From positions 1 through 64,000 of the forward strand of contig NZ_BMYJ01000007.1 in NCBI RefSeq assembly GCF_014652215.1: a DNA stretch of 64,000 nucleotides, written 5' to 3'. The translations under genes were made by a program, and so were the position numbers. The first letter of the stretch is position 1. The number at the start of each line of letters is the position of its first letter. The notes under the pieces were generated by a model, which was given only the letters and a program-made list of their open reading frames with translations, made no database searches and was not told the origin of the DNA. Positions 6,369-40,596 of the stretch are shown here, one piece after another. The DNA is from Neogemmobacter tilapiae. GTDB taxonomy: Bacteria; Pseudomonadota; Alphaproteobacteria; Rhodobacterales; Rhodobacteraceae.

Positions 6369-7871
6369 TCAACTCGCCTCGTCGCCCTCATTCCCCTCGT
6401 TGTTCTCGTCGCCCTCGTCCTGTTCGTCGTTCTCGTTGCCTTCGTCATCCTCGTCGTTTTCGTCGCCCTCGTTGTTTTCGTCCGCCTCGTCGTCCTCATC
6501 GCCCTCATCGCCTTCATTTCCGTCGGGCAGGTCGGATTCGTCGGCCTCGTCGCCTTCGTCATCCTCGTCGTTTTCGTTGGCCTCATCGGCCTCGTCGCCC
6601 TCATCGAATTCGTCGTCCTCGTCGCCTTCGTTGTCCTCGTTGCCTTCGTCCAACTCGTCGCCTTCATCGTCCTCATTCGTGCGCGGATCGCCCGAGGCGA
6701 CTTCATCCCCCTCGTCGCCCTCGTCATTGTCCGCGTCTTCGTTGCCTTCGTTGGTCTCGTCCAGCTCGTCGCCTTCGTCGTTCTCGTCGCTCTCGTCGGC
6801 TTCGTCCGCTTCGTCGTTCTCATCGTCTTCGTCGCTCTCGTCGGCCTCATCCCCCTCGTCGGCCTCATCCCCTTCGTTGTCCTCGTTCCCCTCGTTGTCT
6901 TCGTCGCCCTCGTCGCCTTCATCGTCGGCGTTGTCTTCGTCGCTCTCGTTGTCCTCGTCGTTCTCGTCGCCTGCCTGATCGTCAGCGGCGTCAGCGATCT
7001 CATTGCCTTCGTCGCCTTCGTCATTCTCATCCGACTCGTCATCTTCGTTCGACTCGTCGTCCTCGTCCCCCTCGTCGTCCTCGTTGGACTCGTCGGCATC
7101 GACGTCCTCGTTGAACTCGTTGCCCTCGTCCCCTTCGTTGTTTTCGTCGTTCTCGTCGCCTTCATTGCCCAGCACGGGGCTTGGCTCGTTGCCTTCATCG
7201 CCTTCGTCGGCCTCATCCCCCTCGTTCGCCTCGTCGTCTTCGTCGCCCTCGTCGAATTCCTCGCCCTCGTCACCCTCGTCGTTTTCGTCGTTCTCGTCGT
7301 CCTCGTTGCCTTCGTCAGCCTCGTTGTTCTCGTTGCTCTCGTTTTCCTCGTCGCCCTCGTCGCTTTCGTTGTCCTCGTCGTCTTCATCGCCTTCGTTGTT
7401 CTCGTTGCCTTCGTCGTTCTCATCGTTCTCGTCGGCTTCGTTATCCTCGTCGTCCTCGTCGTTCTCGTTGCCTTCGTCCCCTTCGTCGCCTTCATTGCCC
7501 TCGTCGTTCTCGTTGCCCTCATCCCCCTCGTCGTTTTCGTCGTTCTCGTTACCCTCGTCGTTCTCGTTGTTCTCGTCGCCTTCGTTGTTTTCGTTGCCCT
7601 CGTCGTTCTCATTGCCCTCGTCGTTTTCGTCGCCTTCATTGCCCTCGTTATTGGGGCCAGCCTCGTTGCCTTCGTTGCCTTCGTCGTTCTCGTTGCCTTC
7701 GTCGTTTTCGTTGTTCTCGTTGCCTTCATCGCCCTCGTTTTTCTCATCCCCCTCGTCGCCTTCATCGCCCTCATCATTGGGCGCAAAGAGCGGATTCTCA
7801 TCCTGCGACAGCTGCGCTTGGATGATCGAAGTGTCGTCTTCAGAAGTGGTGGCGGTGCGAGCGGTGGTCAT
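6369..7871 (-). CDS. Polyacidic [DN]-E-x triplet-repeat protein, putative T1SS cargo
   Basis: 500 residues. A 31-residue non-repetitive leader (MTTARTATTSEDDTSIIQAQ, then LSQDENPLFAP) is followed to the last residues by a strict three-residue period in which Glu is every third position, Asp or Asn precedes it and mostly Gly/Asn/Asp/Ala/Ser follows (GDEGNENDEGNEN style). Short breaks such as AGPN, PSPVLG, IADAADDQAG, VASGDPRT and DLPDG interrupt it. There is no Cys, His, Trp or Tyr, a single Lys and two Arg. ATG at 7871 is chosen (AAAGGA nine bases upstream) over a TTG seven codons earlier. No RTX nonapeptides and no Sec signal are seen. The divergent oxygenase, ABC and HlyD genes suggest export by type I secretion after modification; that role is inference. 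Confidence 0.7.
   Translation of the reverse strand: MTTARTATTSEDDTSIIQAQLSQDENPLFAPNDEGDEGDEGDEKNEGDEGNENNENDEGNENDEGNEGNEAGPNNEGNEGDENDEGNENDEGNENNEGDENNENDEGNENDENDEGDEGNENDEGNEGDEGDEGNENDEDDEDNEADENDENDEGNENNEGDEDDEDNESDEGDEENESNENNEADEGNEDDENDENDEGDEGEEFDEGDEDDEANEGDEADEGDEGNEPSPVLGNEGDENDENNEGDEGNEFNEDVDADESNEDDEGDEDDESNEDDESDENDEGDEGNEIADAADDQAGDENDEDNESDEDNADDEGDEGDEDNEGNEDNEGDEADEGDEADESDEDDENDEADEADESDENDEGDELDETNEGNEDADNDEGDEGDEVASGDPRTNEDDEGDELDEGNEDNEGDEDDEFDEGDEADEANENDEDDEGDEADESDLPDGNEGDEGDEDDEADENNEGDENDEDDEGNENDEQDEGDENNEGNEGDEAS
6372..7778 (-). repeat. Coding microsatellite-like array, 3-codon and 9-bp units
   Basis: The repeat part of the acidic gene consists of GAC/AAC-GAG-GGC-type codon triplets. 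Asp and Asn codons differ by one G/A transition at position one, and Asp (GAC/GAT), Asn (AAC/AAT) and Glu (GAG/GAA) codons vary silently along the array. Because the unit is a multiple of three, slippage would change length without breaking the frame. It also keeps four other frames open (SPSS, RRPR, TRTTKAT-like readings), which are artefacts. Confidence 0.85.
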
Positions 7872-8283
7872 AATCGGAAATCCTTTGGCCAAAAGACGGG
7901 GAACAGAGTGACGCGAGAGATCGGGTCAGTGGAAACGGTTTGCAGACGAGCGATTGAGTCCAGCAGATTGCAAAAAAAGAATAGGGCCGCGCCCCTGATG
8001 CGGTCTGCCAGGAGGCTGCGCGACCAAAGTGGCACCGATGTGTCGGCGGCACGGTTCTGCGCAGAGCAATTCCCTAAGGGGATGAGACGCCAAGCCCCGG
8101 CCTTCTGTCAAGCCCCAACACAGGGCACCGAAAATGCAGGCCGAACGTTCTCCAGGCCCAAAAAGATTCCGCTTGCCGGAACAAAGGCGGGTATGCTGAC
8201 ATGATCAGCAAGTCAGACCGAATTTCTAAAGACGCATTGCTGGGCACGGCAGGTTGCTAAAAGTGGATCGCAGGGGTGGAAAG
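7872..8283. promoter_or_regulatory. Divergent intergenic region of the acidic-repeat/T1SS locus
   Basis: 412 bp between the two divergent start codons, so it must hold both promoters or the promoter of each arm. I see no clear operator palindrome and no convincing gene: the open frames here have no ribosome site and no family character. An A-run (CAAAAAAAGAAT, about 7970-7982) is the only AT-rich feature. Confidence 0.4.
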
Positions 8284-35010: not shown

Positions 35011-36390
35011 CTATCGGCACAGATTGGTGGCTTGCAGCATCCCGTGTCCAAAAACGGGATCATAGCCCTCATCCCCTATATCCTTGGCCGAACTGGCCAG
35101 AAGGGCCATCACCTCATCCGGTGTCAGCGCGGGATTGGCCTGCAAGATCAACGCTACCGCCGCAGTGACATAGGGGGCGGCAAAAGACGTGCCCGTCTTG
35201 CCTCGTGCACCGGAAACCGAGGCTGCCGTCCAGATGTCCACGCCCGGTGCTGCCAGGTCGATATGCGGTCCGCCCACGGCCCGGCGATAGATTCGCCCCG
35301 AACGATCCACCGCCGTCACGGCGATCACCGTGTCATAGCCCGCCGGATAGCGCGGCCGCGCCCTTGGTCCTGCGTTGCCCGCTGCTGCCACCAGCACAAT
35401 GCCCATTTCCTTACTCAGACGCTGCAAGGTTTCTTCCAGCACCGCATTCGGCGGCCCAGCCAGCGACAGGTTGATCACCGCCACGCCCCGATCAGCCAAA
35501 GTTTTCAACCCCTTCACCAAGGCCATCACATCCGCACGCTCATCCCCGCCATCCAGATGAAAGACATCCACCGCCAGCAGGGGCATCCAAGGGACCAATC
35601 CCGGCGAGCGGCTGTCGGGACGGCCCGCCAGAACCGCCGCCACTGCCGTGCCATGCACTTCGCGCGAGGCATCGAAATCGGCATGGGCCCCGCCAATCAC
35701 CTCCAGCTTCACCCCGTCAAAGGCTGCATGATCCGGGTTGACGCCGGTGTCGATCATGCCAATCGTCACTGGAATCCCGGCACATTGTGTTTGCAAGGAG
35801 GGTGCCACCGGCCAGTCGATCTGGGTCAAGGCCGGGCAATGCGGTCCTTCGCAAAGCGGAGCCTCACGTGCGGGTTCGGCCACCAGAGCCGGCTCTTCCT
35901 CGGCCCGGTAATAATGGTTGAAATCGGCGTCAGGCGCGCTTTCCAAGGCGCGGACGACGGCCCGCGCTTCGGGCAGGGCAAGATCTTTCGGAATCCGCAG
36001 GCGTCGCAGAATGCTTTCCTGACCCAGTGCTTGTTCTTCCAGCAGCGCAAAACCATCCTCGATCAGCAGCGCCAGATCCGGGGCGGACAAATCCAGCGCC
36101 ACGATCTCATCCGGCACACGGGTCGGAAGCCGCACGATGACGGGCGCGGGCTGTCGGCGCGGACTGGCCCGGCGGGGGCTGTCATCGTCATCATCATCCC
36201 CACCGCCCGAAGACCGTGGTGATGATCGCCGGTTATCATCATCGTCATCATCGTCCCCGCCCCGGTCATCATCGTCATCTGCCATGGCGATGCCCGCAAA
36301 GCCCAGCCAAGCCCCCGGCAAAGCCGGAAAATTCAGCAGCAAGGCCAGCATCAAGACTTGCAGGCCGGGCGAAATCAGGCGGGTTTTCAT
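35011..36390 (-). CDS. Secreted subtilisin-family (S8) protease with Asp-run N-terminal segment
   Basis: 459 residues from the ATG at 36390. Signal peptide or anchor at about 5-36. Then three aspartate runs (about 38-42, 46-52, 65-70) separated by RRSSPRSS and ending SPRRASPRR, followed by a helical prodomain-like region and the S8 catalytic domain. Asp214 (GMIDTG), His246 (EVHGTAVA), Asn339 (AAAGNAG) and Ser402 (GTSFAAP) complete the triad and oxyanion hole. Divergent from an ECF sigma gene 79 bp away, which may control it. Upstream ATG/GTG codons exist; the exact start is uncertain. Confidence 0.85.
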   Translation of the reverse strand: MKTRLISPGLQVLMLALLLNFPALPGAWLGFAGIAMADDDDDRGGDDDDDDDNRRSSPRSSGGGDDDDDDSPRRASPRRQPAPVIVRLPTRVPDEIVALDLSAPDLALLIEDGFALLEEQALGQESILRRLRIPKDLALPEARAVVRALESAPDADFNHYYRAEEEPALVAEPAREAPLCEGPHCPALTQIDWPVAPSLQTQCAGIPVTIGMIDTGVNPDHAAFDGVKLEVIGGAHADFDASREVHGTAVAAVLAGRPDSRSPGLVPWMPLLAVDVFHLDGGDERADVMALVKGLKTLADRGVAVINLSLAGPPNAVLEETLQRLSKEMGIVLVAAAGNAGPRARPRYPAGYDTVIAVTAVDRSGRIYRRAVGGPHIDLAAPGVDIWTAASVSGARGKTGTSFAAPYVTAAVALILQANPALTPDEVMALLASSAKDIGDEGYDPVFGHGMLQATNLCR

Positions 36391-36469
36391 CTTTGTCATC
36401 CACATGGCTGGAAATTCAAACGTCACTGACTACGTTCCGCATGGTGAACTATTCCATGGTTGGTGACGA

Positions 36470-36979
36470 ATGCCTTCGGACAAAAACAGGATTGACCGGT
36501 TCGAAGAGGATTTGATTAACCTTCTGCCCAATCTGCGCCGCTTTGCCCTTTCTCTTTGCCGCAACCCGGACATTGCCGATGATCTGGTGCAAATCACCGT
36601 GGAACGCGCCTTTGCCGCGCGCAATCATTATGATCCAGCGACGCCCTTGGCGGCCTGGACCTTTCGTATCCTGCGCAATGCCTGGATCGACATGACACGC
36701 AAAACGCGGAACCACGGCGCGCAGATCCCCATCGACGACATGGCCGATGGCCCTTCGGTCGACGGGCGGCAGGTGACCGAGGCGCGGCTGATGTTGGGCT
36801 CGGTCGAGGCGGCGATGGCGGAACTGCCGGACCAGCAGCGCGAGGTGATGGTTCTGGTTTGTATAGAGGACATGACCTATGCCGAGGTGGCCGAAATTCT
36901 GGAAACCCCTATCGGCACGGTGATGAGCCGTCTTTCGCGGGCACGGATAAATCTTGCAAAGATGTTGGGAATAGAATGA
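36470..36979 (+). CDS. ECF-type RNA polymerase sigma factor
   Basis: 169 residues: region 2 (LRRFALSLCRNPDIADDLVQ...RILRNAWIDMTRK) and region 4 (LPDQQREVMVLVCIEDMTYAEVAEILETPIGTVMSRLSRAR). Followed 43 bp later by a membrane anti-sigma-like gene and divergent from the subtilase. The pair likely senses an envelope signal and may transcribe its own operon and the neighbouring protease. Confidence 0.92.
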   Translation: MPSDKNRIDRFEEDLINLLPNLRRFALSLCRNPDIADDLVQITVERAFAARNHYDPATPLAAWTFRILRNAWIDMTRKTRNHGAQIPIDDMADGPSVDGRQVTEARLMLGSVEAAMAELPDQQREVMVLVCIEDMTYAEVAEILETPIGTVMSRLSRARINLAKMLGIE

Positions 36980-37022
36980 GGCTTGGCACGTTATCTGGGC
37001 AGATCAACGCTATGGGACGAGA

Positions 37023-37736
37023 ATGACCTATTCCGATGACATCCTGATGGCCTTGGCCGACAAGGAACTGCCCGCCGACATGGCGGCGCGGGTGCAGGCG
37101 GCGATGGAGGCTGACCCTGACATGGCCGCGCGCTATGCGATCTTTGTCAAAAGCCGTGCCGCAATGGCCGGGCTGCGGCGCACCCCTGATCCTGCACCCG
37201 AGGCGCTGGTGGCGCATGTCCGCCGTCTGGCGGCTGAGGCGCGGGCAGAAGAGGCGCGATCGAATGTGGTCTCGCTGCGCGATTGGCGGCGTATTCCCGC
37301 CCTGCCCATGTCCATCGCCGCAGCGATTGCGCTGGCGGCAGGGTTGTTCGTGGGGATGCAGACGGCCCATGATGGGGGCGGATCGGAATTGGCGGGTCTA
37401 GGCCAGCCGGGCCTGACCGATGCCTTGGGCCAACTGCCCTCTGGCGAACGCAAGCCGCTGAAAGGCGGAGGCGAGATGGTGGTGATTGGGTCGTTCCTGA
37501 CCGGCGACGGGGCGCTTTGCCGCGAGTTTGAGTATGACGGGCCGGATGGGCGGACGCTGGTTTCGGTGGCCTGTCGGCAGGGCGAAAGCTGGGAAACCCG
37601 CCTGACCATTGCCGCGCAGGCGTCGGACGACGGCTATGCCCCGGCCTCGTCGCTGGAAACGCTGGATGCCTGGCTGACCGCCACCGAAGCAAGTCCGGTT
37701 CTCTCGCCCGAAGAGGAAATGGCAGCGCTGCAATAG
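37023..37736 (+). CDS. Membrane anti-sigma factor
   Basis: 237 residues. The cytoplasmic N-terminus (MTYSDDILMALADKELPADMAARVQAAM) is the usual sigma-binding helix pattern of Rhodobacteraceae anti-sigmas. One TM at about 97-115 (PMSIAAAIALAAGLFVGMQ). Periplasmic C-terminal domain with two Cys (LCREFEYDG, VACRQGE) that could form a disulphide. No zinc-binding HxxxCxxC. Directly follows the ECF sigma gene. Confidence 0.85.
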   Translation: MTYSDDILMALADKELPADMAARVQAAMEADPDMAARYAIFVKSRAAMAGLRRTPDPAPEALVAHVRRLAAEARAEEARSNVVSLRDWRRIPALPMSIAAAIALAAGLFVGMQTAHDGGGSELAGLGQPGLTDALGQLPSGERKPLKGGGEMVVIGSFLTGDGALCREFEYDGPDGRTLVSVACRQGESWETRLTIAAQASDDGYAPASSLETLDAWLTATEASPVLSPEEEMAALQ

Positions 37737-37739
37737 CGC

Positions 37740-38933
37740 CTATCGCCGCCGGATCACCCCGGCGGCCTCGAATTGCGCCAGCAACAGCGCCACATCCGCG
37801 CGGATCGTGGCGGGGGTGACCTGCGGGAAGGCTTCGGCCAAGGTTTTGGCAATCGCATCCCCCGTTTGGCTTTCCGACAGCAATTGCCAGACCACCGCTG
37901 CTATGGGGTTCACCGCCAGAACGCTGTTTTCCTGCGGATGCCAAAGATAGGTCTCGGCCCCCCGCTGCCGCAGCCGCACTTGCGCCATTTGTGCCCAACT
38001 GTCGCTTAGCGCGACCGGCGACAGAACCGGGGCAGGCGGCAGATCCATTGCCGGGCCGATGTCGATCAAGCCATCACAAAACGCTTGGCGGATCAGGGCC
38101 ACCGCTTCCTCCAGATCGCTATAGACCAACCGCAGGCAAACGGCTCCCTCCACCAGATTTTGCGCCCGTTCCAGAAAGGGATCGGTTTCGTCGGACAACG
38201 AGATGTTGCGCGTCAGCACATGCGCCATAGCCTGCACTTTGGGCAGGTCGTGAAAACGCGCAGGACCGCTTTCCAGACGGGTCAACGCCACAAATGCCCC
38301 CATCGCCGCCTTTGTGCCATGCGGGGCCGTCGTTTCCGCCGCGAGATAGGCATATTGCCCATCACGCAGGGGGGCGTTGTCCTGCACATGCTGGCGGAAC
38401 CGGGCCGAGACCGCCTTGGGCAGGGGCAGCCGCAGACGCGGCGGGATGCCTAGGCCCAGACATTGCCCGTCCGGCTGCACCGGCAGAACATCGTCGCACA
38501 GAACCTGCGCCCAAGCCTCAGCCGTCAGCCGCGCCATCAGCGTGCTTTTCCCTGCCCGCGCCTCGCCCGCAAAGGCCACCACCTGACCCGCGATTACAAC
38601 CCCGCCCGCGTGCAGCATCAGATCTTTGGGGTGCTCTTCGGACCAGATTTCCGACAGGTCGGCAACAATGGCGCAAAAGGCCCCCGTCACCGTCAGCCCG
38701 TCCATCGGTTCATCCAGATAAGTTGATTGCACGACATAAGCCCCGCCCCTGCGATGGGTGGCCGAGGCCGGATTGTCGCTTGCATCCGCAGCCTGAACAC
38801 TGGGTCTCCAGCCTGACAGCCCGACTTGCAGGGCATTGGCCACGGGTTCCGCATCGCGCAGATGGATGGGCCGGGTCAGACCTGGGAAATCCAGCCTTAT
38901 CGTGCTGGGCTTGACGGGTTTGACCGCATTCAT
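37740..38933 (-). CDS. HPr-kinase-like P-loop protein fused to a PqqD (RRE) domain
   Basis: 397 residues. The HprK-like part carries LMLHAGGVVI (His108), P-loop GEARAGKST (123-131) and VLCDDVLPV. Residues about 325-397 (LWHPQENSVLAVNPIAAVVWQLL ... EAAGVIRRR) are a PqqD domain, the winged-helix RiPP-recognition element that binds leader peptides. HPr-kinase homologues phosphorylate Ser in the lasso peptide paeninodin pathway. The gene starts 54 bp downstream of the Tat-exported Lys/Ser/Arg/Pro repeat protein, its most obvious candidate substrate. Start has AAAGGTGATGCG upstream. Confidence 0.85.
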   Translation of the reverse strand: MNAVKPVKPSTIRLDFPGLTRPIHLRDAEPVANALQVGLSGWRPSVQAADASDNPASATHRRGGAYVVQSTYLDEPMDGLTVTGAFCAIVADLSEIWSEEHPKDLMLHAGGVVIAGQVVAFAGEARAGKSTLMARLTAEAWAQVLCDDVLPVQPDGQCLGLGIPPRLRLPLPKAVSARFRQHVQDNAPLRDGQYAYLAAETTAPHGTKAAMGAFVALTRLESGPARFHDLPKVQAMAHVLTRNISLSDETDPFLERAQNLVEGAVCLRLVYSDLEEAVALIRQAFCDGLIDIGPAMDLPPAPVLSPVALSDSWAQMAQVRLRQRGAETYLWHPQENSVLAVNPIAAVVWQLLSESQTGDAIAKTLAEAFPQVTPATIRADVALLLAQFEAAGVIRRR

Positions 38934-38987
38934 CGCATCACCTTTGAAAAACGGATGCCGCCCCTGTTTGGCGCGGCATCCCAGTGG

Positions 38988-39326
38988 TTACTTGCGCGAC
39001 GGGCGCGAACGGCGCGACGGACGCGTCTTGCGATCGGGCCGGTTCGGGCGCGATGGCCGCGATTTCTTCGGCTTGTTCGGGCGCGAAGGACGCGACTTCT
39101 TGGGTTTGTTCGGACGCGACGGCCGCGACTTTTTCGGCTTGCTCGGACGCGAGGGTTTCGAATTGCGCGAGGGCTTGGAGTTGCCCGAATTGTCATCGCG
39201 GCCATCGGCCATGGCCGGGCTTAGATGCAGCATCGCAGGGGCCATATACACGGTGCCAGCAGCCAACCCCAATTGGGTGAACAGCTTGCGCCGCGACAGT
39301 TTCGGGCCTTCGGGTTGATCGGTCAT
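38988..39326 (-). CDS. Tat-exported polybasic Lys/Arg/Pro/Ser repeat protein
   Basis: 112 residues. Tat signal: SRRKLFTQLG (RR at 12-13), hydrophobic stretch to about 39, cleavage expected after AMA40. The mature part starts DGRDDNSGN and then is almost only Ser, Lys, Arg, Pro and Asn, with three perfect tandem copies of KPKKSRPSRPN (residues 63-95) flanked by degenerate copies. No recognised domain. AAAGGAC precedes the ATG. First gene of a two-gene unit with the HprK-PqqD protein, so possibly a modified precursor or cell-surface polycation; role inferred. Confidence 0.75.
   Translation of the reverse strand: MTDQPEGPKLSRRKLFTQLGLAAGTVYMAPAMLHLSPAMADGRDDNSGNSKPSRNSKPSRPSKPKKSRPSRPNKPKKSRPSRPNKPKKSRPSRPNRPDRKTRPSRRSRPSRK
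39042..39140 (-). repeat. Three tandem 33-bp coding repeats
   Basis: Encodes three identical 11-residue units KPKKSRPSRPN; the DNA copies differ silently at several third positions, which indicates selection to keep the peptide sequence rather than a very recent duplication. Confidence 0.8.
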
Positions 39327-39543
39327 CTTTTTGTCCTTTCCTGTTTCAACCGCCGTTTCCAGCGGCGATGGATGAACAACGATGGGCCGAAAGCTTTATT
39401 CCACCGCCCCAAGAAAAAAATCTGCATGGGAATCCGGCAAATTCCCCCTCACATCTCGTCACCCCTTCCATTGACCGGGGGGAAACAATCCCTTACCTCC
39501 GCCCTGCAACTTCGCATTGCTTCCCGCACGAAAGGGGGCCCTG

Positions 39544-40596
39544 ATGCTTGACCTTGCCCATATGCGCGCCGAACTGGCGCGGCATTATGATCTGGCCCCA
39601 TCCCTGAAACTGGCGGAACAGACCTCGGACATCTGGCAGGGCATGTCCCGTGTTGTGCCCTTCCCCGACTGGGCGATCCATGCGCCCTACGTGGTGGCGA
39701 TCAACCGGCTGAAAGCCGAACGTGATGCCGTGATCCTAGGACACAATTACATGTCGCCGCAGGTCTTTCATGGCATTTGCGACGTGGTGGGCGACAGCCT
39801 GCAACTGGCGGTCAAGGCGCAAGAGGTGAAGGCCAGCGTCATCGTGCAGTGCGGTGTGCATTTTATGGCGGAAACGTCGAAAGTGCTGAATCCGCAAAAG
39901 ACGGTGCTGATGCCCGATATGGAGGCGGGCTGTTCGCTGGCCGAATCCATCACGGCCGAAGGCGTCGCCCAGATGCGTGCCCGTTACCCCGGTGCGCCAG
40001 TGGTGACCTATGTCAACACGACAGCCGAGGTGAAGGCGGCCTCCGACATCTGCTGCACCTCTTCCAACGCCGCGCAGATCGTGGCGGCCTTGGACGCCGA
40101 TACCGTCATCATGCTGCCCGACCAGTATCTGGCGCAGAACGTGGCGAAACAGGTGCCGCACAAACGAATCGTCTGGTGGGAAGGGTCGTGCATCGTGCAC
40201 GAACAATTCACCGCGAAAGAGCTGCGCGAGTTCCGCGACTGGAACCCCGACACGCGCATCATCGCCCATCCCGAATGCCCCCCCGACGTGGTGGCCGAGG
40301 CGGATTATACCGGTTCAACCTCGGGCATCATCGCCTATGTGGGTCGTGAACAGCCGCAAAAGGCACTGCTTGTCACCGAATGTTCCATGGCCTCGAACAT
40401 CGCCGATGCCCATCCGAAGGTGGATTTCGTCGGCCCCTGCATGATGTGCCCCTATATGAAGATGATTACGTTGGAAAAGGTGCTCTGGTCGCTGCACACC
40501 ATGACCACCCCGGTTGATGTTGCGCCCGAATTGATCAAAGGCGCGGCCCTTGCCGTTGAACGGATGATCGAAATGTCGCGCCAGGTGGCCGTATGA
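39544..40596 (+). CDS. nadA: Quinolinate synthase NadA
   Basis: 350 residues. AVILGHNYMSPQVF, VIVQCGVHFMAET, ICCTSSNAA and GPCMMCPYMKMITLEKV contain the Cys ligands of the 4Fe-4S cluster. Condenses iminoaspartate with dihydroxyacetone phosphate in de novo NAD synthesis. AAAGGGGG precedes ATG at 39544. Overlaps nadB by 4 bp. Confidence 0.97.
   Translation: MLDLAHMRAELARHYDLAPSLKLAEQTSDIWQGMSRVVPFPDWAIHAPYVVAINRLKAERDAVILGHNYMSPQVFHGICDVVGDSLQLAVKAQEVKASVIVQCGVHFMAETSKVLNPQKTVLMPDMEAGCSLAESITAEGVAQMRARYPGAPVVTYVNTTAEVKAASDICCTSSNAAQIVAALDADTVIMLPDQYLAQNVAKQVPHKRIVWWEGSCIVHEQFTAKELREFRDWNPDTRIIAHPECPPDVVAEADYTGSTSGIIAYVGREQPQKALLVTECSMASNIADAHPKVDFVGPCMMCPYMKMITLEKVLWSLHTMTTPVDVAPELIKGAALAVERMIEMSRQVAV

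Follow-up and report, generated by a model that had tools for sequence, protein, structure and literature searches.

In a window of 64,000 nucleotides from Neogemmobacter tilapiae, we found two adjacent genes whose products, P0002 and P0001, are probably the precursor and the modifying enzyme of a RiPP-like system, in which a Tat signal would double as the leader that guides serine phosphorylation before export. An earlier note on this DNA had proposed a modification pair of this kind; that part of its proposal was strengthened by the conserved pairing of the two genes, by a docking motif of lasso peptides and linear polyphosphorylated peptides (LPPs) in the leader, and by invariant kinase residues, while its idea of a phospho-polycation did not hold in general. 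The pair consists of the following features:

38988-39326, minus strand: precursor P0002, 112 aa, with a Tat-like leader and a Ser/Arg/Pro/Lys repeat tail
39207-39326, minus strand: leader and Tat-like signal, P0002 residues 1-40 (SRRKLF...YMAPAM...AMA), from leader alignment A2 and the leader model
39231-39248, minus strand: predicted RRE-docking motif YMAPAM, P0002 residues 27-32, from YxxPx[LMFVI] in adjacent precursors
39042-39140, minus strand: three KPKKSRPSRPN units, P0002 residues 63-95, exact at the protein level
37740-38933, minus strand: P0001, an HprK-type kinase fused to a PqqD/RRE domain, 397 aa, from Pfam, NCBIfam, AlphaFold2 and Foldseek
38544-38567, minus strand: P-loop GEARAGKS, P0001 residues 123-130, with conserved GKS
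38490-38495, minus strand: catalytic-type Asp pair D147-D148, with partner His H108, from residue conservation
37740-38000, minus strand: RRE (PqqD) domain, P0001 residues 312-397, from PF05402, the structural model and profile comparison

The repeat gene lies 54 bp upstream of the HprK–PqqD fusion gene and is co-directional with it, in agreement with the earlier note in both position and strand. P0002 begins with MTDQPEGPKLSRRKLFTQLGLAAGTVYMAPAMLHLSPAMADG..., followed by a K/R/S/P/N tail; as the same note had recognized, it joins a Tat-like signal (SRRKLF, a hydrophobic stretch and AMA, i.e., a twin-arginine signal with an AxA) to KPKKSRPSRPN repeats, of which there are exactly three. Pairwise, the units differ at 6, 4 and 5 nucleotides, all in third positions and all synonymous, whereas about a quarter of the possible single changes would be silent, which suggests that the repeat is maintained at the level of the protein. 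Recent DNA slippage cannot by itself account for the repeat, given these silent, third-position-only differences. Sub-threshold matches apart, neither P0002 nor its relatives (7 compared with NCBIfam, 5 with Pfam) matched any NCBIfam or Pfam family above its cut-off, and a sigma-70 promoter scan of 36300-39700, whose coverage excludes ECF promoters, found none. Elsewhere in the window, a 507-aa frame with a TTG start (6369-7892, minus strand) encodes acidic triplets (DEGDEGNEN...) from a 9-base tandem array, so that an acidic-triplet frame and a basic SRP repeat protein occur in one genome.

Conservation and neighbourhood of the pair

Within the same family, co-occurrence was evaluated in 394 genomes, with the kinase and leader searches evidently made on the same draw. 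P0001 matched 48 genomes at E <= 1e-3 and 30 at E <= 1e-12. The leader model, which has 41 positions and was built from 23 seed leaders chosen by eye (two from PepSY-type proteins), matched 66 genomes at E <= 1e-3, of which 29 were strong, all at 3.1e-15 or better; the best weak match reached 1.6e-6, and the weak matches were mostly in long frames. The thresholds were set at E <= 1e-12 for the kinase and E <= 1e-8 for the leader, which left out 18 of the 48 kinase-match genomes, mostly short matches around the P-loop, and 37 of the 66 leader-match genomes, probably ordinary Tat proteins. Both genes were then present in 28 genomes, the kinase only in 2, the leader only in 1 and neither in 363 (Fisher p 2e-39, uncorrected for kinship and indicative only, since the genomes are related).

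The three exceptions have particular features. The contig of the leader-only genome (G220) stops 281 bases past the precursor stop, and these bases, on inspection by eye, resemble the beginning of a kinase relative. One kinase-only genome (G390, locus L056) encodes a protein of 316 aa that ends before the RRE domain and gave no leader match, and the other (G125) has a partial kinase match.

Conserved adjacency, one of the points on which the earlier note had staked its proposal, was found in two sets of loci. Of the 34 loci in the first set, 29 have a leader ORF as the immediate upstream neighbour of the kinase; L056, L072 and L073 have no leader ORF, and L019 and L020 have one elsewhere in the locus. 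Twenty-eight flank loci were taken from genomes with stronger matches, and L074 was dropped, as tblastn detected no kinase there. Named genomes gave 29 loci, 3 of them cut by a contig edge and 7 on contigs of the first set, and the leader ORF is directly upstream in all 26 with upstream sequence; in two of the named loci the precursor and kinase genes overlap by 4 bp. These loci include Gemmobacter, Paracoccus, Rhodobacter, Rhodovulum, Yoonia, Loktanella and Mesorhizobium, and the pair is also present in the gammaproteobacteria Guyparkeria and Halothiobacillus. A first scan of genome contigs with P0001 alone as query confirmed no relative.

At the class level, the kinase matched 46 of 385 genomes at E <= 1e-10. 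Among 29 loci examined from these genomes besides that of the window, 18 have the leader and 11 lack it, at least 3 of the latter being cut by contig ends. At this level, kinase and PqqD are often encoded separately by adjacent ORFs, and the loci without the leader have other surroundings. For example, L162 and L167 have separate kinase and PqqD ORFs by a response-regulator-like ORF without this leader, and represent other HprK/PqqD systems. The precursor gene and the kinase gene appear to have co-evolved, and the docking domain of the kinase seems suited to reading the export signal of the precursor.

Three further genes of the window belong to the surroundings of the pair:

35011-36426, minus strand: S8 subtilase with a D-rich tract (PF00082, E 3.9e-36)
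36470-36979, plus strand: ECF-type sigma factor, a recurrent type A neighbour (Pfam, tblastn)
37023-37736, plus strand: anti-sigma-like protein (NF052375, E 2.2e-6, 27.8 bits, below the cut-off of 100)

Loci of type A contain an ECF sigma factor, an anti-sigma-like gene and an S8 protease (all tallied by tblastn at E <= 1e-4). An S8 match was found in 15 distinct loci; the one in L112 is without its N-terminus, and in 13 of the 14 others the protease carries the same leader as the precursor, often, as judged by eye, together with a Ser repeat of similar type. The protease of the window is the leaderless exception, with a different, Sec-like start and the D-rich tract. Only one codon separates its start from the upstream stop, and its comparison with the 13 leader-bearing relatives amounts to a natural leader swap.

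Type B comprises eight loci of the first set (L059, L062, L063, L064, L066, L068, L069 and L070), in which a second leader protein directly follows the kinase; its C-terminus matches PepSY above the cut-off in L069 and below it in L066. A histidine kinase family member comes next in 8/8 and a response regulator in 6/8, with one of each confirmed by Pfam. The leader can be regarded as a portable tag, since it is also borne by the S8 proteases and the PepSY-type second leader proteins. Leader genes were also seen off the kinase contig, encoding an S8-like protease (L106:5154-6536), a Tyr/Ser/Arg/His-rich repeat protein (L107:3773-4222) and a Lys/Arg plus SSSGG protein (L108:3980-4429); just downstream of the last, a signal peptidase of the Peptidase_S26 family is encoded (PF10502, 94 bits), reminiscent of the SpI-like peptidase in LPP systems. 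Two loci contain two leader-bearing precursors each, L047 (2524-2979 and 4835-5380) and L136 (2126-2452 and 5549-5968).

Leader, RRE domain and kinase

The leaders are constrained at few, well-defined positions. R12, R13, Y27, P30, A38 and A40 are invariant in all 23 leaders of alignment A2, and P0002, itself one of the 23 seed rows, matched the leader model with E 1.2e-17. The pattern YxxPx[LMFVI] lies inside the signal in 48/48 distinct adjacent precursors (29 from the first locus set and 19 from named genomes, with 7 duplicate contigs removed), a figure that depends partly on selection because the flagging of ORFs used, in part, a Tyr near the N-terminus. The last motif position is L in 20, M in 15, F in 7, V in 5 and I in 1. 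By comparison, Y..P.[LIVMFA] occurred in the first 34 residues of 0/36 generic Tat matches from relatives and from the same genome, a control of effectively fewer than 36, as about 19 seem to be members of a single protein family and L198 was mis-read. The genome encodes one TatC; P0002 was absent among its matches to the generic model TIGR01409 at E <= 0.1, so that its Tat assignment is made from the motif alone.

Published work on related systems describes most discrete lasso RREs as reading [Y/W]xxPx[L/V/I/A/F/Y] and the LPP leader consensus as of YxxPxV type (PMC13381572), with YxxPxL in Bsf-type lasso precursors (PMC10368454). The putative docking motif in the leader of P0002 is of this lasso and LPP type.

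The RRE domain of P0001 points in the same direction. Residues 329-394 match Pfam PqqD (PF05402) with 46 bits (cut-off 23.4), and the domain is modelled with pLDDT 95 as three beta strands followed by three helices, plus short extra strands. Compared as a profile with solved structures, it matches TbiB1 (2.5e-11), TfuB1 (4e-7), LppB (2.7e-6) and PbaB1 (7.3e-6), and PqqD parts rank after these, from 1.1e-3; by this sequence measure, the lasso and LPP RREs are its closest relatives among solved structures. Comparison of the modelled folds separates lasso RREs from PqqD poorly: lasso RREs gave Z 12.5-12.1 (rmsd 2.0-2.2 over 84-86 residues), a mycobacterial methyltransferase 11.2 and PqqD 11.1, and PqqD ranked third in Foldseek, amid lasso RREs. 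Neither LppB (9x8z) nor PbaB1 (9x90) was among the fold-comparison and Foldseek matches listed.

Two pocket residues are of particular interest. D380 is kept in 46/47 sequences, and the N342 site has N in 42/47 and D in 5/47; in the profile alignment, with residues mapped by motif spacing, they would correspond to LppB D70, reported to hydrogen-bond the leader Tyr, and N33, reported to fix a kink at the Pro (PMC13381572). RREs of class-level loci without this leader (e.g., L162 and L167) also show, by eye, the Trp and the Asp, with D occupying the N342 site, so these residues are not specific to YxxP leaders, and their conservation is consistent with recognition of YxxP without being diagnostic of it.

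The fusion of an HprK-like domain to PqqD in P0001, also claimed in the earlier note, was confirmed, although residues 75-283 match NCBIfam HprK_rel_A only weakly (E 2.1e-9, 36.9 bits, cut-off 200). The AlphaFold2 model has a mean pLDDT of 93, and Foldseek places PEPCK first and HPr kinase next, two enzymes with a common fold, while the RRE part resembles PqqD and TbiB1. H108, G128-K129-S130 and D147-D148 are invariant in 47/47 kinase sequences; G123 of the P-loop is kept in 29/47. This H...GKS...DD set is that of the lasso kinase BsfK, described as having H, GKS and DD together with further glycines and as phosphorylating Ser3 of its precursor in a reaction accelerated by its RRE (PMC10368454). 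LppK, in turn, is reported to place several phosphates onto one residue, core Ser3, yielding polyphosphorylated peptides (PMC13381572).

Serine-rich tails and alternative explanations

Ser or Thr is the common feature of the 48 tails, which are built from triplets such as SRP, SGG, SGP, SAA, SEP and TRP. An excess of S/T at lag 3 (z > 2 against shuffles of each tail) was found in 36/48 and is absent in 12/48, and TCN and AGY codons are both used for Ser in 44/48. In some cores at the class level, Ser occurs once or twice (L158, L157). Two Cys, 8-17 residues apart, occur near the C-terminus in 15/48 precursors (e.g., L057, L062, L063 and L069), mostly with acidic or neutral tails, and several basic or SGG-type precursors have instead a short hydrophobic or Trp-rich end, as judged by eye.

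The earlier note had suggested that the product acts as a zwitterionic phospho-polycation, and the window tail, with 29 K/R, 4 D/E and about 15 Ser, would suit such a role, as would the 20/48 tails at +10 or more. However, net charge ranges from -12 to +25, 15/48 tails are negative, and many consist of SGG, SAA or SEP repeats. As the window is the extreme of the 48 (+25), polycationic character is a local flavour, the shared property being Ser; a conserved polycation is ruled out as a general feature, and we regard the phospho-polycation reading as improbable. Somewhat less improbable, but still unlikely, is LPP-like chemistry at a single site, in which a single Ser early in the tail would be (poly)phosphorylated and the long Ser repeats would be a flexible spacer only. 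LppK and BsfK provide precedents, and the first Ser lies within 3 residues (+1 to +3) of the AxA, a reference point picked by us in each tail, in 39/48 tails. In the remaining 9, however, it lies at +4 to +11, the window among them (+7), and the period-3 Ser is kept in the 36 tails despite very different composition, which argues against a mere spacer.

P0001 might alternatively be a signal-peptide chaperone with an ATP-using domain, which delays Tat export without covalent change, or a kinase with another target, such as the sigma/anti-sigma pair. The link between RRE and leader is indeed better supported than the chemistry, and type A loci have ECF and anti-sigma neighbours; yet the kinase residues are invariant, the tails stay Ser-rich, and many loci that keep the pair gave no sigma relative by tblastn, which makes this explanation quite improbable, slightly more so than the phospho-polycation. 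Chance neighbourhood, i.e., an ORF of low complexity that happens to lie next to an unrelated kinase gene in a GC-rich genome, would account for low-complexity, fast-varying tails, but is contradicted by the co-occurrence, the adjacency, the invariant leader and the synonymous-only divergence of the repeats, and has practically no probability left.

Known systems and the proposed export route

LPPs, described as restricted to Bacillota, resemble the P0001/P0002 pair in having an HprK-like kinase, an RRE reading YxxP, a conserved leader with a highly variable C-terminus, and a core set without a macrolactam cyclase (PMC13381572). They differ in that their RRE is discrete rather than fused to the kinase, whereas the leader of P0002 is a Tat-like signal, the tails are mostly Ser repeats, and other proteins, e.g., S8 proteases, also bear the leader. 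Neighbour clusters inspected by eye in 52 loci gave no LppS-, LppN- or LppD-like family at a fixed place beside the pair, and no SpI-like peptidase, NTP transferase or MsbA-like transporter was seen among them; in 10/52, an ABC ATPase cluster is present at varying positions.

With phospho-lasso systems (paeninodin and Bsf), the pair shares an HprK homologue with H, GKS and DD and a YxxPxL leader (PMC8498205, PMC10368454); in Bsf, the kinase is accelerated by a B1-type RRE, which would be a further similarity (PMC10368454). The differences from the lasso systems described there are a repeat tail instead of a lasso-type core and a presumed Tat export instead of an ABC transporter; PF13471, the B2-type leader peptidase, had 0 matches in the genome of the window at E <= 0.001. 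HprK_rel_A (TIGR04352) and PqqD_rel_X (TIGR04353) likewise combine a kinase with a PqqD-type chaperone, and HprK_rel_A matches 26/28 members of set A4 at E <= 0.001, but P0001 remains far below its cut-off and has both domains in one protein. DUF2063-associated RREs with DUF2282 precursors also serve precursors that bear an export signal, but these are described as Sec signals, after which come variable leader regions that lack a specific RRE motif (PMC12710340).

On this comparison, the proposed mode of action resembles that of LPP and phospho-lasso systems, but the pair fits neither class, with its fused RRE and unmatched B2 peptidase. A word search of the main text of two RRE surveys (PMC12710340, PMC7470986) found neither "kinase" nor "HPr". 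No description of such a Tat-leader/RRE-kinase system was among the literature matches listed (titles and starts of abstracts), which is weak evidence of novelty, as subscription literature is thinly covered.

We therefore favour a precursor–enzyme pair with the following course, as read from the motifs and gene neighbourhood. YMAPAM in the signal of P0002 would dock in the RRE domain of P0001, as its motif and the RRE type suggest, and bring the Ser-rich tail to the HprK-type kinase, which would phosphorylate Ser, probably at several positions in the S-x-x-S repeats; multi-site phosphorylation is an extrapolation, since LppK and BsfK modify one Ser. Upon release, the product would be exported by Tat, with signal peptidase presumably cutting after the AxA. 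The RRE would also hold back export until modification is complete. By analogy, Tat proofreading chaperones hold back export in a similar way. After export, the product would be a disordered protein with multiple phosphates, located in the periplasm or at the surface, and its synthesis may be tied to an envelope signalling pair, here the ECF sigma and anti-sigma factors. Its phosphoserine arrays might bind metals or other cations, although this is a guess. The earlier note had explained the use of Tat by a folded or liganded cargo, an idea that gained no support from our results; recognition of the signal by the RRE offers an alternative reason.

More tentatively, since we consider the broader version rather less likely to be right than wrong, these loci may represent a proteobacterial route to secreted phosphoproteins, in which Tat signals serve as RRE leaders and kinase–RRE proteins phosphorylate S-x-x-S arrays in the cytoplasm before release to Tat. 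It would also serve S8 proteases and PepSY-domain proteins, with each system wired to an envelope signalling pair.

If the proposed reading is correct, a Tat signal would serve as a RiPP leader, and bacteria would have a simple two-gene route to exported multi-phosphoserine proteins. It would give a testable reason why a disordered chain uses Tat, and would carry phosphorylation of the HprK/RRE type beyond short peptides to proteins of larger size. The ECF sigma factor, the subtilase, and the PepSY protein with its two-component genes would then be leads to the function of these proteins, standing right beside the modification itself.
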